IMG/VR virus record: IMGVR_UViG_3300020119_000062
Location: 1 to 47,346 of that record
Source of the DNA: a virus
Strand: one strand, 5' to 3'
Length of the DNA stretch: 47,346 nucleotides
Each line of letters opens with the position of its first letter. Position 1 is the stretch's first letter. Below, piece by piece: positions 6,694 through 47,346 of this stretch. The notes beneath the pieces were generated by a model that made no database searches, was not told the origin of the DNA, and worked only from the letters and a program-made list of their open reading frames with translations. A program made the position numbers and the translations under genes.

Positions 6694-7330
6694 ATACTGC
6701 GCCATAATTCCTGATCGGGGAGACCGACCAGAATTTACCGAACATTGCCTCTATCAACTATCTAAGATCGATTGGATAACGTCACTTCATATCAACTATA
6801 GCCCTGACACGCAAGGATTTGATTTGGTTGAGCGTATCAAATGGGGCGTTCAATCTGCAAAGCTACAGGGATTTAAAAAGGCTTTCATTGTCGAGAATGA
6901 TGATTGGTATTCACCTGATTATTTCCAACCATTTGATGAGGATTTTGTAGGCTATCAGGATACCATTTACTACCACATCAAATCAAAGACATGGGAGCAA
7001 ACCTTTCACGTTAACCATTCGAGCCTATTCACCACAGCTTTTAAACTAAGTGCTTTAGATGATTTCCGTTGGCCGCGACCAGACACAGTTTTCCTAGACA
7101 TAGAACTATGGAAACACGCCAAGAAGAAAGGTTGGAAACTGAAGAAAGGAAATCCGTGTATCGGTATTAAACACGGCATCGGCCTTTGCGGTGGGATGGG
7201 ACACAGACAAACATTCCCTTATAAGGATTACGAAATGAAATGGCTTGCTGATAAAGTGGATGAAAAGAGTTTAGGGCTTTACAAACGATTAGGACAAACT
7301 TTTAAGGTTGAAGAATTGGTAAGAAAATGA
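6686..7330 (+). CDS. Putative glycosyltransferase (GT-A-like)
   Basis: A 214-residue protein. IIPDRGDRPEFTEHCLYQL at the N-terminus resembles the nucleotide-sugar loop of GT-A enzymes, and KKAFIVENDDWY at about residues 68-79 carries an acidic END/DD motif fit for metal and nucleotide-sugar binding. DIELWKHAKKKGWK follows. The acceptor is unknown. It overlaps both neighbours in the glycan block. Family assignment is moderate. Confidence 0.6.
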   Translation: MTEYCAIIPDRGDRPEFTEHCLYQLSKIDWITSLHINYSPDTQGFDLVERIKWGVQSAKLQGFKKAFIVENDDWYSPDYFQPFDEDFVGYQDTIYYHIKSKTWEQTFHVNHSSLFTTAFKLSALDDFRWPRPDTVFLDIELWKHAKKKGWKLKKGNPCIGIKHGIGLCGGMGHRQTFPYKDYEMKWLADKVDEKSLGLYKRLGQTFKVEELVRK

Positions 7331-7551
7331 AGCATTTTGAATTAGAAATATCCCCCTGGCATTGTTGCAATAGTTATCTAAAATTTGATGGATATATTAG
7401 GGCAAACATTTGGCTTTTACCAAAAATCAAATTAGAATATCGAAGGTTGATAAAAAAAACAGACAAAGAAGTAAGCGGTTACTATTTTGAAATCGAAATA
7501 ACATGGTTATGTTTTTTATCAACAGAAATTTCATTAAGACTTGCTAAATGA
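7327..7551 (+). CDS. Hypothetical protein (74 residues)
   Basis: A 74-residue protein with a beta-rich, aromatic composition (ISPWHCCNSYLKFDGYIRA). No domain, signal or membrane helix. ATGA overlaps on both sides keep it in the glycan operon. Function unknown. Confidence 0.6.
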   Translation: MKHFELEISPWHCCNSYLKFDGYIRANIWLLPKIKLEYRRLIKKTDKEVSGYYFEIEITWLCFLSTEISLRLAK

Positions 7552-7832
7552 TTTGCGGTAAAGAAATATATCCTTCTCAGAGAGGCGCAATAGAAGCCAT
7601 TAAATGCATGTTGGGCGATGCTGACGGACGAAGCAATAAACAACCTTCAAGGGCTTATTTCTGTGAGCCTTGCAATGGCTGGCATGTTCATACCGAGAAT
7701 TACAGGAAGGGTAAAAAGAACAAACAACGCTACAAGAAAGAAACCGACTCTAAGCCCGAAAGCATGAAGGTAAACGATCGGAAGTTTAGAGAACTTATCA
7801 TCCATGATCCACGAAAATTCAAAGTGAAATGA
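7548..7832 (+). CDS. Small Cys-containing basic protein (94 residues)
   Basis: Residues about 35-50 read AYFCEPCNGWHVHTE, a CxxC followed by two His, which may hold one zinc in a treble-clef-like fold. The rest is Lys/Arg-rich. This pattern occurs in small phage proteins without known function. It is joined by ATGA overlaps to its neighbours. Confidence 0.6.
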   Translation: MICGKEIYPSQRGAIEAIKCMLGDADGRSNKQPSRAYFCEPCNGWHVHTENYRKGKKNKQRYKKETDSKPESMKVNDRKFRELIIHDPRKFKVK

Positions 7833-8653
7833 GTAACCAGATTATAAACTTCGGAGTTACTTGTGACTTCTTGGGGCGATTGGGTAATAATTTATTCCAG
7901 GCGGCTGCTGTAGTGGGATACGCTGAGAAACACGGAGTAGATTATGCCCTGCCTCTAGGTTACCATCATCAGAACATTTACAGATTCTTTCCTAAATTTA
8001 AATACCAATATATGCGAAGTCGCGGAGGCGGTCGTAATGGAAAGGAATTAAGTGTTTTTGGAAATGAGAAATATGAGGAACAAGAATGTAAGTATTTTGA
8101 AATTTCTGCTAACCCCGCTGGGGTTCATCTTCGCGGTTTCTTCCAGACAGAACGTTATTTCGAGCATTGCAGAGATAAGATATTGGATCTTCTCAATTTC
8201 AATTATACTCCGATACCTTATGTATCAATCCATGTTAGGCGTACTGACTATCTAGAGCATCCGGCCAATTTCCCGACTGTGACCGAAAGCTATCTTAACA
8301 CCGCTATGGATCATTTTAAAGACAAAACATTTTTAGTATTCAGCGATGACATTCCTTGGTGTAAAGAAACGTTTCCAATTACTTTCTCAGGACGCAAATT
8401 TGAATTTGTGGGGAATGATAAAGTTGAATTTAGCGGTAACGGAAACGAATTTAATGAGCTATCTTTGATGGCTAGTTGTGAGCATAATATAATTGCAAAT
8501 TCATCCTTTAGCTGGTGGGCGGGTTGGGCAAATCGGAATCCAGACAAAATAGTAATAAGTCCCAGTAAGGAAACATGGTTTGGAATAAACGCACAACAGC
8601 TTGAAACAAAATATCTCATTCCTGAAAGATGGATTCAAATACACACACGATGA
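7829..8653 (+). CDS. GT11 family alpha-1,2-fucosyltransferase-like enzyme
   Basis: A 274-residue GT-B enzyme. GRLGNNLFQAAAVVGYA near residue 15 is the GT11 acceptor-side motif; HVRRTDYLEHP at 135-145 is the HxRRxDY motif that binds GDP-fucose; ANSSFSWWAGW (about 223-233) is the conserved C-terminal motif. The family moves L-fucose from GDP-fucose to a terminal sugar. GDP-L-galactose is a close structural analogue, and an epimerase that can make it is encoded at 10165, so L-galactose is a plausible donor sugar. Acts in the cytoplasm, as no signal is seen. Confidence 0.85.
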   Translation: MSNQIINFGVTCDFLGRLGNNLFQAAAVVGYAEKHGVDYALPLGYHHQNIYRFFPKFKYQYMRSRGGGRNGKELSVFGNEKYEEQECKYFEISANPAGVHLRGFFQTERYFEHCRDKILDLLNFNYTPIPYVSIHVRRTDYLEHPANFPTVTESYLNTAMDHFKDKTFLVFSDDIPWCKETFPITFSGRKFEFVGNDKVEFSGNGNEFNELSLMASCEHNIIANSSFSWWAGWANRNPDKIVISPSKETWFGINAQQLETKYLIPERWIQIHTR

Positions 8654-8979
8654 ATGACATTAAAGAAATTTGGCTACCAGTAAATGGATGGGAAACATTG
8701 TATGAAGTTTCTAATTTTGGACAAGTTAGAAGCATAACAAAAATGCGGAAACATTGGCGTGGCCATGATAATAATAGATTATGCGCGAATGTTCATAGAT
8801 TGGTTTGTCAGGCATTCATTCCTAATCATCAGAATTTATCAGTTATTAATCATAAAGATTGTAATCCATTAAATAATAATTTAGAAAATCTTGAATGGTG
8901 TACAATAAGCCATAACACAAAACACGCTTGGGATAACGGAGCGTTTATTCGCAGTAAATTATTTAAACATAATAGATGA
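8650..8979 (+). CDS. NUMOD4/HNH homing-type endonuclease
   Basis: The N-terminus KEIWLPVNGWETLYEVSNF is a NUMOD4 DNA-binding motif; VHRLVCQAFIPNHQN and INHKDCNPLNNNLENLEW form the HNH_3 nuclease core with conserved His, Asn and Asn. It is a 109-residue free-standing homing-type nuclease. The start at 8650 overlaps the fucosyltransferase stop (ATGA) and its own stop overlaps the next start, so it entered the operon without breaking coupling. Confidence 0.85.
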   Translation: MNDIKEIWLPVNGWETLYEVSNFGQVRSITKMRKHWRGHDNNRLCANVHRLVCQAFIPNHQNLSVINHKDCNPLNNNLENLEWCTISHNTKHAWDNGAFIRSKLFKHNR

Positions 8980-9707
8980 TGATGCCGCAATCCATTTCAT
9001 TATGCTTTACTTCATATAATCGCGCAGAGCTTTTATTTCAAGCCTTCGAACAGATACTAAACGATGATCGAATTTCGGAAATCGTTATAAGCGATGACAA
9101 TTCGCGGCCTGATGTTCTAGAAAAAATCTACTTCCATTTCAAGGATGTTTCTAAGGTTAAGATATTTAAGAATGATAGAACACACGACTGCTATTTCAAT
9201 AAGAAACTAGCTATTGAACGCGCTACAAACGAATGGGTTTGCATCCTCGACTCTGATAATATTTTCGGAATGGATTATCTTAATCGAATTGAGAACATCA
9301 TCAGGGGCGGGTTAAATCCTAAAACAATCTATCAGCCCGACTTCGCCAAGCCTCATTTCAATTTCACCCATCTCTCAGGGCAATTATTGAACAAAGGAAA
9401 TATAGCGCAGCACATGCACAATCGTAGTACTGACACGATGCTAAACGCTATGAACTATTTTGTTAACCGCGATGAATATTTAAGAGTGTTCGATGCAAAT
9501 ACGAATCCAGTAACGAGCGATTCTATTTACCAAAACTATCGATGGCTTGAGGCTGGAAATTATATCTATGTCGTACCTTCGTTTGAATATTTACATACTG
9601 TTGATAATCATGGTAATGAGGAAAAAGGACATTATTCTCAAAACAATAATCGTACACCTCGTGGATTCCATGAATCAATAATTTCGAAATTAAAACAAAT
9701 GAGATAA
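8976..9707 (+). CDS. Glycosyltransferase family 2
   Basis: A 243-residue GT-A enzyme. SLCFTSYNRAELLFQAF begins the nucleotide-sugar fold; EIVISDDNSRPDV is the first acidic loop; WVCILDSDNIFG at about residue 90 carries the DxD metal-binding motif. Probably transfers a sugar from an NDP donor to a growing glycan. Three ATG codons follow each other at 8976-8984; the first overlaps the preceding stop and was chosen. Confidence 0.8.
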   Translation: MMMPQSISLCFTSYNRAELLFQAFEQILNDDRISEIVISDDNSRPDVLEKIYFHFKDVSKVKIFKNDRTHDCYFNKKLAIERATNEWVCILDSDNIFGMDYLNRIENIIRGGLNPKTIYQPDFAKPHFNFTHLSGQLLNKGNIAQHMHNRSTDTMLNAMNYFVNRDEYLRVFDANTNPVTSDSIYQNYRWLEAGNYIYVVPSFEYLHTVDNHGNEEKGHYSQNNNRTPRGFHESIISKLKQMR

Positions 9708-14304: not shown

Positions 14305-15113
14305 TAGAAGTTCATCCAGACTTTAGACCACCAATCAAAGAGGAATATCCTTTAGGGAATAAACCTATCTTCGAAGAATGGTTCTTTGAAACTTTTGACC
14401 AATCAATAAAAACAGAGCGCGAATATCTTCCTGTTTGGTGGACTTCATTTTACGTGAATAACCGCTATGGTAAAAACATTCAGGCCATTAACATGCTTCA
14501 GCGAATGATTGATGGATTGGACAAGAAAAAGAAGTATTACACTATCCTCCAATATGATGATGGCATTCTGAATAATATTTCAGGATTAGATATTAAGATT
14601 TTCGGCTCAGGGGGGGGGCGAATAGATTACCCCTTACCGCTTCTTTGTAAACCCCATGCTCACTTCTCTAATTATGATAGGACTTTCTTCGCTAACTTCA
14701 TGGGTGTTCCAAATCACTCCATTAGAAAGCGAATGAAGGAGACTTTGAAGATGCCCAAATACTTTATTCGAGATAAAGAGTTTAGTATTGACGACTATTG
14801 CCGGATAATGGCGCAATCTACTTTTACTCTTTGCCCTCGCGGTTACGGAGCTACCTCTTTTCGAATCATGGAAGCCTTACAGCAAGGATCTATTCCAGTT
14901 TATATCAGTGATCGATTTATCATCCCACATAATCGAGACTTTCAGGATTATGGGGTTTTGATTGGCTCAAATGACGTTGATCGAATAGATGAAATACTTT
15001 CGGCCATTACTCAGGAAGAGATTCAGCGAAAGAGAGAGTTAGGGAAATTGGCTTATGATACTACTTTCAATTGGGATGAGAATAGAAGACTAATTTATGA
15101 GAATGCGTATTAG
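14301..15113 (+). CDS. Exostosin-like glycosyltransferase (GT47 type)
   Basis: A 270-residue protein. FTLCPRGYGATSFRIMEAL and QGSIPVYISDRFIIP (about residues 173-207) are the C-terminal nucleotide-sugar-binding motifs of exostosin-type GT-B enzymes. The N-terminal half is shorter than in eukaryotic members. Acceptor unknown. ATGA overlap with the FkbM gene. The run GGGGGGG at 14611-14617 lies within it. Confidence 0.75.
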   Translation: MIEVHPDFRPPIKEEYPLGNKPIFEEWFFETFDQSIKTEREYLPVWWTSFYVNNRYGKNIQAINMLQRMIDGLDKKKKYYTILQYDDGILNNISGLDIKIFGSGGGRIDYPLPLLCKPHAHFSNYDRTFFANFMGVPNHSIRKRMKETLKMPKYFIRDKEFSIDDYCRIMAQSTFTLCPRGYGATSFRIMEALQQGSIPVYISDRFIIPHNRDFQDYGVLIGSNDVDRIDEILSAITQEEIQRKRELGKLAYDTTFNWDENRRLIYENAY

Positions 15114-28514: not shown

Positions 28515-29615
28515 ATGGCAAATTTCAACCTCGACATAGGGGGCGCATGTGAAAAAATCATCGCTCAGGCAAAAGACTATGCAAAAAAGAACTATCCTGG
28601 CCCTGGTGGTCTTGAAAAACAAAATGGAACATTAGATTTCCTTACCGATCCTTCAAATGGAGGAATTACCTCAGAATTGATTGGAACCGGAAACGGTAAA
28701 ATGCGCAAGGCGCGCGTGCTTTATAAGCAACGTACAAAGACATGCGAAATCCTGACAGGAACGGCAGCCCTTAATTCGGCCCTTTGCGATAGTGCAGAGA
28801 TGAGTGATGTTAAAGAAGTAGTTATAACTGTTAACAAGCGTATTGCAACAACCCCTCGGAAATTCACCAATGAAAGAATGGTAGCTATCTGTCAAGATAC
28901 CCAGTCTTTCGTGAATGAGTTTTTGATGAGTGATCAACGTGCCGGACGCGAACAGTTAGATGCTCAGTTTTTAGCTCTTTTGGCTGGGAATGTGGGGCAG
29001 AATCACCGTCAAGACGGTACAACCGTAGGTGGTGGGGTTTATCAAGATGTTGCTCTTTTGAAATCTGATTCAAATGGTCAAAATATTCCATTGAGTGGTA
29101 ATTTCAACAATATTAAGATGGACTACCAGAACATGGAATTCTCCGGAAATCCTTATCTGATTGGCCAAGGCAATCTTCAGACTTTCTTCTCACTTGCTAA
29201 ATGGGCGTGTTGCAATCAAGCAACTCCATACGCTTCAGCTATTGCCGATAGTGGTACAGCTTTCATGTTGGATCAATCTGTAAACTCTACTTTGGCGGCT
29301 AACCGCTTCCTGATGGTAGCCCCAGGAATTGAACATGCAATGTTCTTCAATGAGAATACGAATATTAACATCTCGTCTGAGATTATCAAGCACGTAGTAA
29401 TTCCTGATTCTGTTTACCCTCAGATTAAATGGGATCTTGATTTCAAATGGGATGAGTGTGCAAAAGCATGGATTTATCAACAATCACTTTACTATGGATT
29501 GTTCAATGTGATCCAAGCTGATTCATTCTCAACTGATTCCAGTTCACCATCTTCTTGTACTGATGAATTGGCAGGAGTTACTGGCGTTTGGGGATTCAGA
29601 GCAACCGCTTCTTAA
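28515..29615 (+). CDS. Major capsid protein
   Basis: A 366-residue protein directly after the scaffold-like gene. It starts MANFNLDIGGACEKIIAQAK and has a balanced alpha/beta composition, strongly expressed-type codons, and an abundant-protein context behind a consensus promoter. DQRAGREQLDAQFLALLAG looks like a spine helix of an HK97-type fold. I assign it by position, size and pattern; no motif alone is decisive. Confidence 0.75.
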   Translation: MANFNLDIGGACEKIIAQAKDYAKKNYPGPGGLEKQNGTLDFLTDPSNGGITSELIGTGNGKMRKARVLYKQRTKTCEILTGTAALNSALCDSAEMSDVKEVVITVNKRIATTPRKFTNERMVAICQDTQSFVNEFLMSDQRAGREQLDAQFLALLAGNVGQNHRQDGTTVGGGVYQDVALLKSDSNGQNIPLSGNFNNIKMDYQNMEFSGNPYLIGQGNLQTFFSLAKWACCNQATPYASAIADSGTAFMLDQSVNSTLAANRFLMVAPGIEHAMFFNENTNINISSEIIKHVVIPDSVYPQIKWDLDFKWDECAKAWIYQQSLYYGLFNVIQADSFSTDSSSPSSCTDELAGVTGVWGFRATAS

Positions 29616-29618
29616 TTT

Positions 29619-30596
29619 ATGGGATGCCTCGATGGCATTGTAAGTCCTGATAAAACAATCTCAAGCAGGGGTGGGCTTTATGCCAACCTCCTGCCTGGGG
29701 TTACGCTATCTCTTTTAGATGATCTCACCAAAGATGAGCAAGTTGATTATTTAGAATGCTGGGATGATATTTATTCACGGGCGAAGCTAAACTTCGTTAA
29801 TGAGATTCAAACTAAGTTGGCCGATCGATTTCATATAGATCAAAAATTGATTTCACGTGAAACATCTCAGTTCACCGACACTACTAATACAGGAAGTAAC
29901 CCAGGCATTCAGATTTATTTCTATGCCTCTAAGTATTCACGGTTTTATGTTACCTCTATTCAAGTATATTCATTAACTGCGGTTTCGGGAGCGGTCTTTA
30001 CGTTTTACGATACTGACGTTAATGGTAAAGTACAGGGGACTAAAACAGCCGATCTTTCAATAGGGCTTAATACGATTTACGTAGATCAGGAATTTGAAGT
30101 AGCAGATAGGCTTTTTATCGGTTATAATTCAAGTTTGGTGAGTTTGAGGCAAACCGAAAATCGCTATTTTAATAACTACTCTTATTTTGCCTTCAATAAA
30201 CTAGAATGCTCTTATCCTTGCTTCTTTTCGGGTTACCGTTTCGGGGTTGAGGGTGGAGAGTATTCTTGTTCTGTTTTTCAAATTAATGGAGGTGGTTTAA
30301 ATGTGGTTTTCAACATTGTTTGCTCTATTGAGAAATTTATTTGCCAGAATATTAATATCTTTAAGGTAGCTTTCTGGTGGAGGATAGGAGTAGAGTTGAT
30401 GATGGAAAGGATTATGTCAGACCGTTTTAACCGATGGACAACCTTAACCACTGAGAGGGCCAAAGAACTTATGGATATGTATAAGTCAAATTACGATGAA
30501 CACCTTAAAATGAGTTGTGGCAATCTAAAAATGACTGAAGACAATATTTGTTTTGAGTGTAAGAGTGCAGTATCAGCTAAACCAATGTTACCATGA
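29619..30596 (+). CDS. Head-tail connector region protein (325 residues)
   Basis: Located right after the capsid gene. The N-terminal part (LLDDLTKDEQVDYLECWDD) is helical; the central part is beta-rich; the C-terminal KMTEDNICFECKS carries a CxxC. It may be a connector or a capsid decoration protein. No named family. ATGA overlap links it to a 20-residue peptide gene. Confidence 0.5.
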   Translation: MGCLDGIVSPDKTISSRGGLYANLLPGVTLSLLDDLTKDEQVDYLECWDDIYSRAKLNFVNEIQTKLADRFHIDQKLISRETSQFTDTTNTGSNPGIQIYFYASKYSRFYVTSIQVYSLTAVSGAVFTFYDTDVNGKVQGTKTADLSIGLNTIYVDQEFEVADRLFIGYNSSLVSLRQTENRYFNNYSYFAFNKLECSYPCFFSGYRFGVEGGEYSCSVFQINGGGLNVVFNIVCSIEKFICQNINIFKVAFWWRIGVELMMERIMSDRFNRWTTLTTERAKELMDMYKSNYDEHLKMSCGNLKMTEDNICFECKSAVSAKPMLP

Positions 30597-30655
30597 AAGA
30601 ACAAAGAGGATGCGACTGCGGCGGCAAAAAAGGCCGTCGCGGTACTAAGAAATGA
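30593..30655 (+). CDS. 20-residue Cys/Gly/Lys-rich peptide
   Basis: MKEQRGCDCGGKKGRRGTKK is encoded in a frame whose ATG overlaps the upstream stop (ATGA) and whose TGA overlaps the downstream ATG (ATGA). Such double coupling in the head-tail region is hard to get by chance. The CDC pair and the basic tail suggest binding of nucleic acid or a metal. Far below usual gene-calling size. Confidence 0.5.
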   Translation: MKEQRGCDCGGKKGRRGTKK

Positions 30656-31128
30656 CTTGGGACGATGAGATAAACTCATTGAATAAACTTTTATCTTCGG
30701 ATAAAGGTATGCGAACGGCATTGACTACCATTTTGGCTTTGCAGAAGAGACGTATTTTCCAGAATGGACAAGCGGCTGACAATTCGAAGATAGGAACTTA
30801 CGGAACGAACCCAGCTAGTATTTCTAAAAAGCAGCAAGCGCAATCGACAGGGAAGACCTATTTTAAAGGTGGATATGCTGAGTATAAAACATTGATAGGA
30901 AAGAATCCTGGATTTGTGATTCTAAGGAATACAGATCAAATGATGATGGACTATAATATGTTCGTCTTAGGGAACAATCAATGGGGACTAGGATTTTCTA
31001 ATGACCTTAATCACGACAAATCGGAATGGATGGAAGATAAATACAAAAAGGAAATTTTTGACGATTCACAGGAGGAAGACACGGTTATAGAAAATATACT
31101 AACGAATTTTCTTGACGGATATTTGTGA
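30652..31128 (+). CDS. Neck / head-tail joining protein (158 residues)
   Basis: LQKRRIFQNGQAADNSKIGTY (start about residue 30) is a pattern seen in virion morphogenesis (Mu gpG-like) and neck proteins of phages from this group; the C-terminus is acidic. Position after the connector region suits a head-completion or tail-joining role. It overlaps the next gene by 17 bases. Confidence 0.6.
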   Translation: MTWDDEINSLNKLLSSDKGMRTALTTILALQKRRIFQNGQAADNSKIGTYGTNPASISKKQQAQSTGKTYFKGGYAEYKTLIGKNPGFVILRNTDQMMMDYNMFVLGNNQWGLGFSNDLNHDKSEWMEDKYKKEIFDDSQEEDTVIENILTNFLDGYL

Positions 31129-31615
31129 AAATATTGATGCATCTATTGTAAACACATTACCATGCCCAGGAATCAAATTCTTCGGACTTGCTGAATTAGC
31201 TATAAAATCTAATCAACCTCATCCAGTTACTATAAATGATCGCAAGCAAATAGCAATCAATGATCGTTATGATGGCATAGCATACTATCGTCTCTTAAGT
31301 TCTGCCGCCCCACAGCCTGCAGAATGGCAGTGGGGAAATAAATTGAATAATATTTTTAAATCACGGATTAGAAATATTCTCGTTTTTAAAGTCAATAAAC
31401 TAGCTGAAGAGTTTATCTATGATTATGTGAATGCTATTCCTAATTGGCTAGACCTACAAGGATATAAATTAGTGGATGTTGAAAACAATGTTTCAATCAT
31501 TGCAGATCAGGAGGCCGTTTACAAAACAGAATTTGGAACTGGTGATTATGAAAAGCATATTTTGACTTGGAATATTTACGCGATTGAATATGATATTGAT
31601 TTCATAAAATGCTAA
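31112..31615 (+). CDS. Neck or tail-terminator-like protein (167 residues)
   Basis: The start is TTG at 31112; the protein has no internal Met, so no ATG alternative exists. Alpha/beta composition, size and position between neck protein and baseplate-like protein suit a tail-completion protein. No family named. Confidence 0.55.
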   Translation: MTDICENIDASIVNTLPCPGIKFFGLAELAIKSNQPHPVTINDRKQIAINDRYDGIAYYRLLSSAAPQPAEWQWGNKLNNIFKSRIRNILVFKVNKLAEEFIYDYVNAIPNWLDLQGYKLVDVENNVSIIADQEAVYKTEFGTGDYEKHILTWNIYAIEYDIDFIKC

Positions 31616-38135: not shown

Positions 38136-38159
38136 AATAGCCGTTTAAAACGGATAAAT

Positions 38160-38302
38160 GGCGTATATCGAGCTATTATGTGCAATAGTCTGCCCCAATT
38201 GTGTTTGTTGCCGTAACCCCACATCCCCCGCTACACGTGCCACCGCGCACACAAACACACCCACGCTTCGCAGCCTACTGCCCATAACACCGTGTATATG
38301 CC
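38160..38302. repeat. GC-rich palindromic element A (cassette boundary)
   Basis: Imperfect palindrome bounded by GGCGTATA (38160-38167) and TATATGCC (38295-38302), with an inner pair TTATGTG (38176-38182) and CATAA (38283-38287). The interior is much more GC-rich than its neighbours and has no gene. CCCACGCTTCG (38260-38270) recurs in element B. A short perfect hairpin CCGTTTAAAACGG (38141-38153) precedes it. Confidence 0.7.
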
Positions 38303-39041
38303 AGTTTAAATGCGTCATAGTTCTGCATTCCATAGTGAAGTTTGTAGTTCTTTCGTATTTGTTTTAAAAGCCCCCACCGCACAGTTTAATACATGAAGTC
38401 CAAGTTCTGGATTAACCATGTTACGGAGAATAACGTCCTTTCTTTGTTTCAATTTATGACCTCTGAGATTTACACCATAATGGGTTGAGCCTCTCGAAAT
38501 ATCATTTATGTTTCCGTGGTCACGTTCTAAATTGAATCGTGTTATTTTAAAGTTGCTCCAGAAGTAGTGCCGGTCAAGTTCAATAGTTGGTCTTACAAAA
38601 GTCTCATAGTATGGTATTACGTTTTCAACTACAAATTTGGTTTTACAAAATTGTTGAAGGAATATTATTTCTTGCCACAGTTTCATATCCGGGTATCTTA
38701 CAATTCCCTGGGCATTTAGAAATTTATTGTTACCTGAATGACTTTGGCATGGTGGAGAACTCCAAATAAAATCAAACTCTTTGTAATGGTCTAAAAGGTA
38801 TTGGTGAGCATCGGTGACAATTACTATATCATTTGGATAAAACTCTTTGTAAACATTTGCTATTTCCTCACTGTATTCAATGGCAGTAACTTCGACATCT
38901 TTCCACAGTTGACGATTGCCACCAATTCCAGAGTAAAGATTTAATATTTTCATACCCTTGCCGCCCTCCGGCTTTTAAAACAAATACTTAGTGTGCATTT
39001 CATAGCTTCGTTCGTGTTCGCATTTAAACCGTCATATACAC
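38292..39041 (-). mobile_element. Gene cassette 1 (C5 methyltransferase)
   Basis: Bounded by a 23-base inverted repeat at 38292-38314 and 39019-39041, 21 of 23 matching (GTGTATATG, three bases, GTTTAAATGCG). The gene's TGA directly abuts the left half. The two mismatches flank a shared C; the left has A and the right (read as complement) G at the second. Mobility is inferred from structure only. Confidence 0.5.
38315..38953 (-). CDS. DNA cytosine-5 methyltransferase-like protein (212 residues)
   Basis: MKILNLYSGIGGNRQLW is motif I (SAM binding); TAIEYSEEIANVY is motif II; IWSSPPCQSHSG (about residues 88-99) is motif IV with the PPC catalytic Cys; FVVENVIPYY is motif VI with the ENV residues. 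It is shorter than usual C5 enzymes (over 300), with little target-recognition region and no clear motif X, a compact form I have seen in phages and islands. Target sequence unknown. It is the gene of cassette 1. Confidence 0.8.
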   Translation of the reverse strand: MKILNLYSGIGGNRQLWKDVEVTAIEYSEEIANVYKEFYPNDIVIVTDAHQYLLDHYKEFDFIWSSPPCQSHSGNNKFLNAQGIVRYPDMKLWQEIIFLQQFCKTKFVVENVIPYYETFVRPTIELDRHYFWSNFKITRFNLERDHGNINDISRGSTHYGVNLRGHKLKQRKDVILRNMVNPELGLHVLNCAVGAFKTNTKELQTSLWNAEL

Positions 39042-39049
39042 TTGATACA

Positions 39050-39157
39050 TTCTAAGCAATGCCGCTCCCGCCACAATCAGCCCCGCCCCTCACGGAGTTC
39101 CGCACATGCCATCGCTCTGCGGGTCTGCCCACGCTTCGGTCGGGACACTGCTTAGAA
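39050..39157. repeat. GC-rich palindromic element B (cassette boundary)
   Basis: Bounded by a perfect 9-base inverted repeat, TTCTAAGCA (39050-39058) and TGCTTAGAA (39149-39157). The GC-rich interior shares CACATGCCATCGC (39103-39115) and CCACAATCA (39071-39079) with element D and CCCACGCTTCG (39128-39138) with element A. No gene seen between 38954 and 39224. Confidence 0.7.
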
Positions 39158-39161
39158 TAGC

Positions 39162-39624
39162 CGCTATAATCAATTGGCGCAAGCATAGTTCTGTTTTTCA
39201 TGGTTTAGTCTGTGGAAGAAAATTTTAAACTTTTTCTCCCACCGCACGATATTGGTCATTGATGGATTTTACTTTATCATAAATTTCTTTTGGAACTCTT
39301 ACATATTTGGTTTCAACTCCTGATAATATTCCCATTCCCTGGCGCATGAAGAATCTTTCTAAATCAAATTTCATCGCAAGTTTATTTGTCGCATTGGCTT
39401 TCTGACCATATACGTTTATTCCAAAATCAATCAATGGTTTAAAAAGTATCTTCATATCCTGTCCTACAATTTCCTCTCCTTTGGTTAGGAGAAATTCTTC
39501 AATAACATGGAATCCATCAATGTTAATTTTAGTGTAAGGTTTGTTCATCGCTCAAAAAGTTTAAAATTTTAGTGTGTACTTCTAATTTCGTTCATATCGT
39601 TTTTTGCGCCAACTGCTTATAGCG
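39162..39624 (-). mobile_element. Gene cassette 2 (107-residue unknown protein)
   Basis: Bounded by a 21-base inverted repeat at 39162-39182 and 39604-39624, 19 of 21 matching (CGCTATAA, then TTGGCGCAA). The left half has T..A where the right half, read as complement, has G..G around CA. CATAGTTCTG (39184-39193) beside the left half is identical to 38316-38325 of cassette 1. Confidence 0.5.
39225..39548 (-). CDS. Hypothetical protein (107 residues), cassette 2
   Basis: Starts MNKPYTKINIDGFHVIEEF; basic, alpha/beta, with no signal peptide, membrane helix or named domain. DLERFFMRQGMGILSGVE lies centrally. No similarity to other proteins in this window. The upstream region shares a GAACGAA and CACACTAA arrangement with cassette 1, which may be a promoter or a cassette-end motif. 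Confidence 0.65.
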   Translation of the reverse strand: MNKPYTKINIDGFHVIEEFLLTKGEEIVGQDMKILFKPLIDFGINVYGQKANATNKLAMKFDLERFFMRQGMGILSGVETKYVRVPKEIYDKVKSINDQYRAVGEKV

Positions 39625-39632
39625 ATTGCTCA

Positions 39633-39765
39633 TTGTATGCCATTTGGCTGCTTACGATAATGCCCTTCCGCTGATGCTTTCGCTCGAAGGCCAACGCTCA
39701 CGGGCATTGCCAGCACACACGCCAAACGTTCGCCTCCATCACACGTGCGACCGCTGCTCATACAA
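39633..39765. repeat. GC-rich palindromic element C (cassette boundary)
   Basis: Bounded by TTGTATG (39633-39639) and CATACAA (39759-39765). The GC-rich interior has several nested short inverted repeats (for example TGCCC and GGGCA around 39661 and 39701). No gene in 39549-39833. Confidence 0.65.
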
Positions 39766-39768
39766 CAG

Positions 39769-40303
39769 AGGCTATAAAACATAGGGCAACTCGAAGTGTG
39801 CTTTTCATAGTCAGTTCGTGGACGGAAAATGAATTAATTACCGCCATCGCTCATGAATGCAATGAAATCAACACAAGCAGCGAAAGCAGCGTCAATCAGA
39901 AAATCAGATTCAAATAATTGTTGCCTATTAAACCTGAACATGAATTTTCCTTCATGACTGATCATTCCAAAAGTTGTAGGATATGCCCTATGTTTTATCA
40001 TTCGTTTTTCAATTCCATTATCTTCCTCCTGTTCATCATAAACATATTGGCTAATTTTTTCAATGACAGGCATCAACCAATCCCATCTATCATGAAAGTT
40101 CATCTTATCTGATTCAGTTTCAGTTTCACCGGTTGAGTATCCAGTAAAAGGATAAAGGTTAGGAATCATGTGATTACCCGATTTGGTTTTTTCCCATCCC
40201 ATAAAGTCAGCAATTAAAGCCGACCCTTCGGTAATTAATTCATTTTCTGTTTTGCTTTCCATAATTAGTTATTTACGTTTAGTTGCCCTACGATTTATAG
40301 CCT
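39769..40303 (-). mobile_element. Gene cassette 3 (phage-family protein)
   Basis: Bounded by a 23-base inverted repeat at 39769-39791 and 40281-40303, 21 of 23 matching (AGGCTATAAA, three bases, TAGGGCAACT). The mismatches are A and A at left versus T and G at right (as complement), flanking a shared C. Confidence 0.5.
39834..40262 (-). CDS. Phage hypothetical protein of the 'IADFMGW...WDWLMPVIEKI' family
   Basis: 142 residues. ALIADFMGWEKTKSG near the N-terminus, HDRWDWLMPVIEKISQYV centrally, and DAAFAACVDFIAFM at the end align with the backbone gene at 1018-1431, which has IAEFMG, WDWLIPVVEKIE and AVVEFIKW. Divergent enough to be a different lineage. Function unknown. It is the gene of cassette 3. 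Confidence 0.75.
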   Translation of the reverse strand: MESKTENELITEGSALIADFMGWEKTKSGNHMIPNLYPFTGYSTGETETESDKMNFHDRWDWLMPVIEKISQYVYDEQEEDNGIEKRMIKHRAYPTTFGMISHEGKFMFRFNRQQLFESDFLIDAAFAACVDFIAFMSDGGN

Positions 40304-40309
40304 TCCACA

Positions 40310-40413
40310 TTATGTGCCATTGCTTGCCCCACAATCAAAAGCACTCCGGCTGGAACTTCACATGCCATCGCGCATGTGCTTTTGCCCGCCCTTCTGCAAT
40401 CAACGTCACATAA
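40310..40413. repeat. GC-rich palindromic element D (cassette boundary)
   Basis: Bounded by TTATGTG (40310-40316) and CACATAA (40407-40413). Contains CACATGCCATCGC (40359-40371) and CCACAATCA (40329-40337), both shared with element B, and the internal pair GCACATGCG / CGCATGTGC region near 40355-40380. No gene in 40263-40507. Confidence 0.7.
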
Positions 40414-40450
40414 CAGCAGGTATATGCAATGCAGCCCCGCAGGCGCGGCA

Positions 40451-40495
40451 CTTGCATAAGTCGCACATCCTTCCCGCTTCCAAAACTTATGCAAG
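40451..40495. terminator. Stem-loop downstream of the cassette 4 gene
   Basis: CTTGCATAAG (40451-40460) and CTTATGCAAG (40486-40495) form a perfect 10-base stem with a 25-base loop, 12 bases beyond the gene's stop. It may end the transcript or be part of the cassette-end structure; there is no clear T-run. Confidence 0.4.
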
Positions 40496-40507
40496 AGCCA
40501 CGAGTAT

Positions 40508-41092
40508 TTAATTCCAGTAAGCATTGACGTTTTCCCAATCTGGATAATTTTGATTTAACCATTCGTGAGCAACTTTGTAAGCCGCATCGTATCCGTCAAA
40601 GAAGTGTTTTTCTCCACTGAAAATTACTTTATCAGTTGCAGTGTCAATGACATTTACAATTCGGGCATGATCAAAATCTTTTGCTGGATTTTTTTCTGAT
40701 TCAAAATGCTCTGACCTGGTTTGGTATCTCTTACAAAAATCAATATGTGTACTTCGATCGTAGAAAGCAGCCTTATAGAAAATCATTGCACGAGTCCTTC
40801 CTTTATCATCAATTAATTTACTCCACATAGAATGATCGGTGCCAACTTTTTTCCATCCATCAGGTAGTTGAACATCATAAAAAATGTCATCGCCTTTCGT
40901 TTTGCCCAAAACCTTTATTCCCATTAGTGTGTATTGAGCTTCAGCTTCATTTCTATTATAATCGCATTTGACAGGTAGCTGCGAAGAGATGACTAATTGC
41001 TTTTGACCTTCTGATTCTTGTCTAAGAATTGCATTTGGATTGCCGCCTAATAACCATTCATGATTAGGTGTGGTGGACGTGTTTTTTATCAT
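40508..41092 (-). CDS. Hypothetical protein (194 residues), cassette 4
   Basis: Starts MIKNTSTTPNHEWLLGGNPN. Soluble, alpha/beta, with LPDGWKKVGTDHSMWSKLID and RTRAMIFYKAAFYDRSTHID centrally and GYDAAYKVAHEWLNQNYPDW at the end. I recognise no named domain; the pattern suggests a conserved accessory protein. No signal peptide or membrane helix. Upstream is A- and T-rich with a repeated TTTCGGTTTCA (41111 and 41134 regions). Confidence 0.65.
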   Translation of the reverse strand: MIKNTSTTPNHEWLLGGNPNAILRQESEGQKQLVISSQLPVKCDYNRNEAEAQYTLMGIKVLGKTKGDDIFYDVQLPDGWKKVGTDHSMWSKLIDDKGRTRAMIFYKAAFYDRSTHIDFCKRYQTRSEHFESEKNPAKDFDHARIVNVIDTATDKVIFSGEKHFFDGYDAAYKVAHEWLNQNYPDWENVNAYWN

Positions 41093-41193
41093 AATTGTAA
41101 AGTTAAAAGTTTCGGTTTCATTTTAGTTCGTTTCGGTTTCAAAGCTCACAGAGCCAAGCTGCGCAAGGCACTGTGGCTCATTAAAATTCTCAA

Positions 41194-41250
41194 GGGCTGC
41201 ACTGCATATACCCATGCACATTGTCTCGGTTGTAGAATACGATGAAAGGA
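41194..41250. repeat. Incomplete boundary element at the right edge of the array
   Basis: The right half of cassette 4's inverted repeat (41194-41212) is followed by ATGCACATTGTCTCGG, resembling the left side of elements C and D, but no matching right side is found before 41260. The array therefore seems to end in half an element. Confidence 0.35.
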
Positions 41251-41260
41251 TTAATCATTG

Positions 41261-43300: not shown

Positions 43301-43915
43301 TTATCCCCACTGCTCTGCCATTGCTCGTGCTATAGCCGGAAATGTCTTTGATCGATCTTTTGCATTTGTCATACGACCCATAAAATATTTATTCTTCATT
43401 TTGCCATCACTTCCAATTCTTGATTTTTCTGGCTTAGGTTTAAATTTCATTGGATTTTCAGCCACTTCAATAAGACCTTGAAGTTTTGGCAATCCTTTTA
43501 ACCAAAAACATGTTTCCTTCATTTCATTATCTCCAAAATACCAAGGGTGTATTTTTTGATTTGGCTTTCTCCAATTTGTATTTAACCAACCTACTGGATT
43601 TTCTATTGCAATTAAGGGTATTTCTGCATTCCATAAATCACGAACAAATTGAAATGATTTTAAAAGTTTATCCATTCTATCCGGTTGTTTATGAATAAAT
43701 TGTATTCCTGCTCTAGAAAAATAAGTACATGGCGGGTGCGCAATCAAAATATCCCATCGTTTCAATTGAATGGCATCCAACGCATCCATTTTCAAATGCC
43801 ATTCTGGATGACCTCCGGAGCAATCTTGAAGATCACAGGAATACGCCTCATGACCTCGCGCCCGAAACGCTTTACAAACTTCTTGACTTTCCTCACACGC
43901 AATTAAAACTTTCAT
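43301..43915 (-). CDS. DNA cytosine methyltransferase-like protein (204 residues)
   Basis: MKVLIACEESQEVCKAFRAR (from 43915) is motif I; EAYSCDLQDCSGG is motif II; ILIAHPPCTYFSRAGIQF is motif IV with the PPC Cys; IAIENPVGWLN is motif VI. The C-terminal third has no standard target-recognition domain. Such compact proteins are frequent in phages and may be modification enzymes. The upstream 23 residues of the longer frame are a hydrophobic run from the neighbouring gene, so I reject them. Confidence 0.75.
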   Translation of the reverse strand: MKVLIACEESQEVCKAFRARGHEAYSCDLQDCSGGHPEWHLKMDALDAIQLKRWDILIAHPPCTYFSRAGIQFIHKQPDRMDKLLKSFQFVRDLWNAEIPLIAIENPVGWLNTNWRKPNQKIHPWYFGDNEMKETCFWLKGLPKLQGLIEVAENPMKFKPKPEKSRIGSDGKMKNKYFMGRMTNAKDRSKTFPAIARAMAEQWG

Positions 43916-44166
43916 TTCAAAAAAGTTACTGTGAACAAATACCAAAGGAAAACAAGGATAGAAGAAAGCAAGATTAAAAGACACATTCCCCCATCCATGA
44001 TAATGATTAACTTTCTAGCCTTCATGATAAAATCGAGGCCAAAATAAATAGTGCCAAGAAAATGAAAATCAGGGTCAGCAACATTTTTGTGTAAGGCAGC
44101 CTCATAATCATTAATTTTATTTGTGTTAAAAAAATCAGGGTCATACGAAGAAACTTCAAATACCAC
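43912..44166 (-). CDS. Small protein with C-terminal membrane helix (84 residues)
   Basis: Soluble N-terminus (VSSYDPDFFNTNKINDYEAA) and a C-terminal helix GMCLLILLSSILVFLWYLF, so likely tail-anchored in the inner membrane. ATGA overlap with the methyltransferase gene. Function unknown. Confidence 0.55.
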   Translation of the reverse strand: MVFEVSSYDPDFFNTNKINDYEAALHKNVADPDFHFLGTIYFGLDFIMKARKLIIIMDGGMCLLILLSSILVFLWYLFTVTFLK

Positions 44167-47236: not shown

Positions 47237-47346
47237 AAGTTCCAAAGTTCAATAGGGAGATACTTGCGGCAAATGTCGGCTGTGGCTTTCTGGTTTTTAA
47301 CCCGAGCATAAGCAGCAGCAGCATCATCAGCAGCAGCAGCATAAGC
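47220..47346. repeat. Direct terminal repeat, right copy
   Basis: Identical to bases 1-127 (see the left copy). It includes the first 17 bases of the 42-residue gene and the 3' end of the alanine-repeat gene (complement of 47233-47346). Confidence 0.9.
47233..47346 (-). CDS. Copied 3' end of the alanine-repeat gene (partial)
   Basis: The last codons of the gene at 14-580 are repeated because of the circular overlap. It stops at the contig end inside the trinucleotide repeat. Confidence 0.8.
   Translation of the reverse strand, partial: AYAAAADDAAAAYARVKNQKATADICRKYLPIELWNL

Follow-up and report, generated by a model that had tools for sequence, protein, structure and literature searches.

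An array of four gene units in a phage genome as a probable orphan of an integron-like cassette system of Bacteroidota and their phages

The stretch of DNA analysed here, the 47,346-base virus record IMGVR_UViG_3300020119_000062 (the window, meaning the whole of that record), contains at positions 38,136 to 41,260 an array of four minus-strand gene units, each with one main minus-strand open reading frame inside its own pair of inverted repeats. With a probability of roughly 80%, this region is an orphan cassette array, belonging to a site-specific recombination system that resembles integrons and occurs in Bacteroidota and their phages. The reading follows from the linkage of related arrays to a recombinase gene and an attI-like site, together with a clean difference of one cassette between two closely related contigs. 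A prediction made earlier from the sequence alone (the original prediction) had proposed a cassette system, whether akin to integrons or separate from them, that is driven from elsewhere, and the recombinase-linked relatives and clean junctions described below support it. A search of the window record with the tyrosine recombinase family PF00589 gave no match, in agreement with the earlier statement that no recombinase is encoded.

Private repeats, hairpin modules and cargo of the window array

Inverted repeats with arms 200–3000 bp apart that reached the score threshold numbered nine in the whole 47 kb window, compared with zero to two per shuffled sequence, and eight of the nine fall inside the array. 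A repeat search returned the four private outer repeats of the original prediction at the same coordinates and with identical scores, each around one main minus-strand gene, and its claim that the repeats differ between cassettes while their arms co-vary was borne out: each arm paired with its own partner gives 78 matched positions out of 92 in total, the best of the other 23 of the 24 pairings giving 61. A second private repeat, overlooked earlier, is nested within cassettes 1–3. One fixed mismatch, likewise overlooked, is present in the repeat pair of all 16 gene units inspected, which come from the window phage and related ones; the gene-start copy has G and the gene-end copy A, a G.T wobble on the gene strand. 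Two gene units of a single array at locus L024 (7734–9530; G007 29409–31205) have an identical 20-bp inner repeat, GTTTTTGAATTTAAAATAAC, and different outer repeats, suggesting that inner and outer repeats are modular. The features of the array are as follows.

38136–38175, minus strand: attI-like array end, TAGCCGTTTA...GGCGTATA-TCGAGCTA ahead of the first TTATGTGC core, with the genes pointing towards it
38176–38288, minus strand: hairpin module 1, end boxes GTTATGGGC...GCACATAA, pattern match
38292–39041, minus strand: gene unit 1, outer repeat 38292–38314/39019–39041 (21/23), A/G mismatch at position 12
38355–38372/38970–38987: inner private repeat of gene unit 1 (18/18)
38315–38953, minus strand: protein 1, 212 amino acids (aa), related to C5 DNA methyltransferases, C-terminal part unrecognised
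39050–39158, minus strand: hairpin module 2, boxes of ATTCTAAGCAG...CATTGCTTAGAAT type
39162–39624, minus strand: gene unit 2, outer repeat 39162–39182/39604–39624 (19/21), A/G at position 12
39219–39235/39554–39570: inner repeat of gene unit 2 (17/17)
39225–39548, minus strand: protein 2, 107 aa, no family assigned
39633–39766, minus strand: hairpin module 3, boxes GTTGTATGAGC...GGCATACAAT
39769–40303, minus strand: gene unit 3, outer repeat 39769–39791/40281–40303 (21/23), A/G feature
39822–39843/40229–40250: inner repeat of gene unit 3 (about 21/22)
39834–40262, minus strand: protein 3, 142 aa, short BLASTP similarities to proteins of the related phage contigs G008 and G409
40310–40414, minus strand: hairpin module 4, boxes GTTATGTGACG...GGCACATAAT, pattern match
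40419–41212, minus strand: gene unit 4, outer repeat 40419–40437/41194–41212 (18/19)
40508–41092, minus strand: protein 4, 194 aa, partial match to hypothetical proteins of Gordonia, Mycobacterium and Brevundimonas phages
41213–41260, minus strand: distal array end, without a complete hairpin in the sequence

The four hairpin modules between the genes (approximately 105–135 nt) end in the boxes GTTATGTGC/GCACATAA or a variant, and by inspection the end boxes of three of them show the same A/G feature as the gene units. In all four, folding as single-stranded DNA favours the gene strand, with free energies of -21.2 against -13.1 kcal/mol for module 1 (z -3.1 on the gene strand), -22.9 against -17.2 for module 2, -24.8 against -19.0 for module 3 (a weak z of -1.4) and -22.9 against -14.5 for module 4 (z -3.5), z thus falling below -3 in two. 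The attI-like end, which the original prediction had not noted, is common to the related phage G410 (IMGVR_UViG_3300020000_000042), where it reads TAGCCGTTTA...GGCGTATAGCCAATTG followed by TTATGTGC, and is similar in L026; its TAA-N6/7-ATAT spacing on the gene strand is that of the recombinase-adjoining site in G407, L101 and L102. A direct rather than inverted motif, AGTGTGC-TTTCATAG-nn-AGTTCGT, lies between the outer and inner repeats at both unit ends (window copies at 38316–38345, 39184–39213, 38990–39005 and 39795–39810) and occupies the same place in relatives; a promoter function is one possible role for it, a third binding site another.

Protein 1 matched PF00145 (4.6e-9) and phrog_363 (7.6e-18), with TIGR00675 below cut-off, and proteins 2–4 gave zero matches in Pfam, PHROGs, NCBIfam and PADLOC. 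The recognisable cargo of related arrays consists mostly of DNA methyltransferases, one of which (G008 14448–15099, L092) is split between two reading frames of 88 and 126 aa and so represents a broken or frameshifted copy. The methyltransferases of the relatives, and the one methyltransferase-like and three unassigned proteins of the window, suggest a cargo of counter-defence genes. A second DNA methyltransferase gene of the window (43301–43984; phrog_757, 8.6e-57) belongs to the replication module and has no cassette repeats. The window end (47247–47346) repeats the window start (1–100) from about base 28 onwards; the record thus has a direct repeat at its termini, and the phage genome is probably complete.

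Recombinase-linked relatives in phages and Bacteroidota chromosomes

Arrays of this kind, with different private repeats, are present in at least 10 other phage contigs. A combined hairpin and gene-box pattern identified real copies in seven IMG/VR contigs, five of which (two being the same phage) follow the private-repeat logic with other repeat sequences; further scans added contigs beyond these initial seven, and arrays were viewed in full contigs. In 85,000 species genomes the pattern gave 17 loci, all chance matches by inspection, and in 395 Bacteroidota genomes the junction motif TATACACTTGATACNTTA was no more frequent than its reversed control, so that the exact box type of the window looks phage-specific. 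By blastn the array had no match in plasmids, and one L024 cassette with its flanks had none in named phages; no Rfam family was found. Loci gathered through a neighbouring HNH gene (L002–L020) were not syntenic and yielded nothing, and a search via the DUF5675 neighbour yielded zero relatives.

The original prediction had proposed looking for a nearby tyrosine recombinase, and one was found beside arrays in related phages as well as in Bacteroidota chromosomes. In phage contig G407 (IMGVR_UViG_3300020045_007699) a 268-aa tyrosine recombinase is encoded on the same strand, 53 bp past the hairpin that follows a methyltransferase cassette. This protein is XerA-like, scoring 185 bits against NF040815 (short of the cut-off of 220) and matching PDB entries 4a8e and 5hxy (E 3.5e-31). 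The same contig (L093, 16.6 kb) encodes at 1240–2340, far from the cassette, a second tyrosine recombinase (366 aa from ATG; PF00589, 1.4e-12), which is possibly a prophage integrase. Relatives of the array-linked enzyme are encoded at 31 viral loci on metagenomic contigs, some of which may be host DNA (terminase was above cut-off in 2 of 16 records). Within 6 kb of these 31 genes, 70 distinct GTT-cored private units lie upstream and four downstream, with none in shuffled sequences, and 65 of the 70 upstream units have G/A at position 11, a position that unit detection had ignored. A TAACTAkNATATA-type attI-like motif stands directly before the recombinase gene, between it and the array, at 23 of the 31 loci, and elsewhere was matched once in 288 kb. 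Recombinase and cassette genes share a strand in the phage loci. Array, attI-like site and recombinase together are the pattern of a platform, and no description of this pairing was found in the open-access literature searched.

Recombinase relatives at E<=1e-40 were present in 67 of 198 Bacteroidota genomes, and in the small group of about 30 chromosomal loci examined, units that follow the G/A rule adjoin the recombinase gene in eight or nine. Ten units in one orientation span 20 kb in G321 and five occur in G352, in both cases beside the recombinase. An earlier indication that chromosomes are without arrays came from scoring recombinase flanks for GTTA repeats only and was overturned by a wider scan for GTT cores. 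A further type of box, GTGTATAAAACATAGC/GCTACGTTTCATACAC, occurs in the spacers of chromosomal arrays; it too has the A/G feature and resembles the boxes flanking the window genes, and the window genes would accordingly lie within the terminal loop of a would-be attC. Among cultured phages, Polaribacter phage Leef_1 has three units ahead of its annotated integrase, and Polaribacter phage P12002L has one full repeat pair and a variant in an array at the equivalent genome position. In the recombinase tree a single branch (support 92) unites the viral members and also contains one chromosomal row, and the array-linked chromosomal members are scattered.

It is moderately probable that Bacteroidota chromosomes and phages share a non-IntI cassette platform throughout the phylum. 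A recombinase of the XerA-like kind and a conserved attI-like site would define it, along with units that end on both sides in private boxes, each about 15 nt long and bearing the invariant G/A mismatch, with genes sitting in the terminal loop of a would-be attC in arrays of the window type, and integron-finding software would miss it. IntegronFinder 2.0 recovered almost no complete integrons in Bacteroidetes (PMC9024848).

Another interpretation is that the array is a canonical integron fragment (CALIN) whose phage-borne attC sites are recognised by ordinary IntI. Integrase-less integron arrays in phages have already been reported (Qi et al. 2023, PMC9892861); that paper describes P12002L as a methyltransferase-bearing phage CALIN and reports recombination of its attC2 with IntI1 in E. 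coli. P12002L has repeat pairs of the window kind at the equivalent position, and a CALIN would also agree with the overall architecture of R and L boxes, with the attI-like end and with folding that is biased to one strand. This interpretation is nevertheless unlikely. The classical RYYYAAC/GTTRRRY consensus is absent from every window box, as the original prediction had stated, and only 3 of 60 units of related phage arrays begin with GTTRRRY, a GTTA/TAAC core being shared. The linked recombinases are without the IntI-specific segment: spacing from K to HxxRH is 62–65 aa compared with 105 aa in Shewanella IntI2 (some 40 residues fewer), the IntI4 alignment breaks at the IntI insert, and the G407 enzyme scores 144 bits against the integron-integrase model TIGR02249, with a cut-off of 265. 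In a canonical Shewanella integron, furthermore, approximately 9–12 nt are paired at cassette ends and the G/A rule does not hold. By the tests made, the array is not a canonical integron.

Exchange of units and a proposed mechanism

Comparison of relatives for clean junctions had been set beforehand as the test by which the cassette interpretation could fail, and the interpretation withstood it. G410 is 69% identical to the window phage in the lysis region and 78% in the RecT region, and carries at the same genome site, behind the same left flank (TAGCCGTTTA...GGCGTATA), an array with other genes. Contigs L021 and L025 share 98.6% identity across 2 kb, but L025 alone has an additional 227-bp unit, whose clean insertion point lies inside ATAAC. 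Similarly, G407 and G408 have a cassette in common up to TATACACTTGATACATTA and then diverge, placing the breakpoint at the same core as the L021/L025 insertion. The idea that each cassette moves as a unit does not cover everything, for one repeat frame can hold different genes: window cassette 4 and G410 6799–7847 have identical frames around unrelated genes (the G410 one encoding a C5 methyltransferase), and a frame shared by G407 and G408 also encloses different genes, so that frames and genes can part.

Alternatively, the repeats might be static structures with a regulatory or terminator role beside accessory genes, the gene differences between phages arising by ordinary homologous recombination in a variable locus. 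In favour of this, frames are kept while genes change, hairpins 95–97% identical do occur in unrelated contexts, and partial hairpin copies at array ends would serve as homology; the distal end of the G410 array (6799–9482, L098) has an identical truncated copy, some 65–70 bp, of the hairpin arm from its attI-like end, by which the array could also be lost or exchanged. The static reading is very improbable, leaving unexplained the private co-varying arms, the invariant G/A mismatch, the adjoining recombinase and attI-like site, and the clean 227-bp difference at the core.

For the orphan cassette array favoured here, the mobile unit would comprise one gene in its private inverted repeat and one hairpin module. 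Each repeat arm would be a recombinase-binding box of about 15 nt, made up of 10 paired bases, the fixed G/A mismatch and at least four further paired bases; when the gene strand is single-stranded, the two arms would pair with each other and the mismatch would form a G.T wobble. A XerA-like tyrosine recombinase might then exchange strands at the GTTA/TAAC core, so that units could be excised, captured at the attI-like end (38136–38175) and shuffled. As the window phage has no such recombinase, the enzyme would have to come in trans, from the host, from a prophage or from a co-infecting phage.

Another possibility is that Xer (dif) recombination of the host moves the units in the manner of pdif modules. 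In its favour, the linked recombinases fall within the XerA/Xer family, the window is without its own enzyme, and one type of junction, TTGCACATAATGTATCAAGTGTATATG, resembles a dif core by eye. This explanation is distinctly doubtful: dedicated recombinases adjoin the arrays elsewhere, central spacers vary from junction to junction, and pdif modules have alternating short XerC/XerD sites and are not known to have hairpins or private repeats.

Several points weigh against the orphan array interpretation. The recombinase is missing from the window itself, and cassette movement is deduced from comparison rather than experiment. Boxes of the window genes are of GTGTATA type, as opposed to the GTTA boxes beside viral recombinases, so that the functional link rests on architecture and the shared G/A rule and not on identical sites. 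Hairpin module 3 does not follow the G/A rule cleanly and folds weakly, and the same-repeat frames with different genes mean that gene replacement by homologous recombination also happens.

Significance and comparison with known systems

The adjoining of related arrays to a recombinase in both phages and Bacteroidota chromosomes makes the system look like a little-recognised cousin of integrons that trades phage anti-defence genes. If this is true, Bacteroidota and their phages own a gene-cassette platform with a cargo of methyltransferases and small proteins of no known family, and the exchange of single anti-restriction genes with exact boundaries between phages would be explained. The G/A box rule would, if the system works as proposed, provide a simple means to find and annotate the platform, and the system offers a test of whether the extra domain of IntI is needed for folded single-strand recombination.

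Known XerA/Xer recombinases resolve chromosome dimers at dif. Their family (NF040815) is the best one for the linked recombinase, the gene of which here goes together with cassette arrays and with an attI-like site. The pdif modules consist of single genes between alternating short inverted XerC/XerD sites; they resemble the window array in placing a single gene between short inverted recombination sites and in having no recombinase of their own, and, unlike it, are not known to have hairpin modules or private repeats. In common with an integron, the system has tandem single-gene units in one orientation, two-box sites that fold with a preference for one strand, a tyrosine recombinase and an attI-like site; unlike in a canonical one, the linked enzymes are without the extra IntI segment, the window encodes no integrase, and its boxes are not of the RYYYAAC/GTTRRRY type of attC. 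Genes pointing towards the attI-like end would exclude a classical Pc. Treponema integrons, in which intI is transcribed towards attI (PMC3607928), also have recombinase and cassettes on the same strand, as opposed to the usual divergent layout, but here a XerA-like recombinase with no IntI segment is present, the genes run towards the attI-like site, the boxes are different and the carriers are Bacteroidota and phages. Phage CALINs (PMC9892861) share tandem single-gene units, hairpin sites, methyltransferase cargo and the lack of an integrase in the phage, whereas the arrays described here have private boxes of at least 15 nt with a fixed G/A, no GTTRRRY in the window and related arrays accompanied by a non-IntI recombinase.

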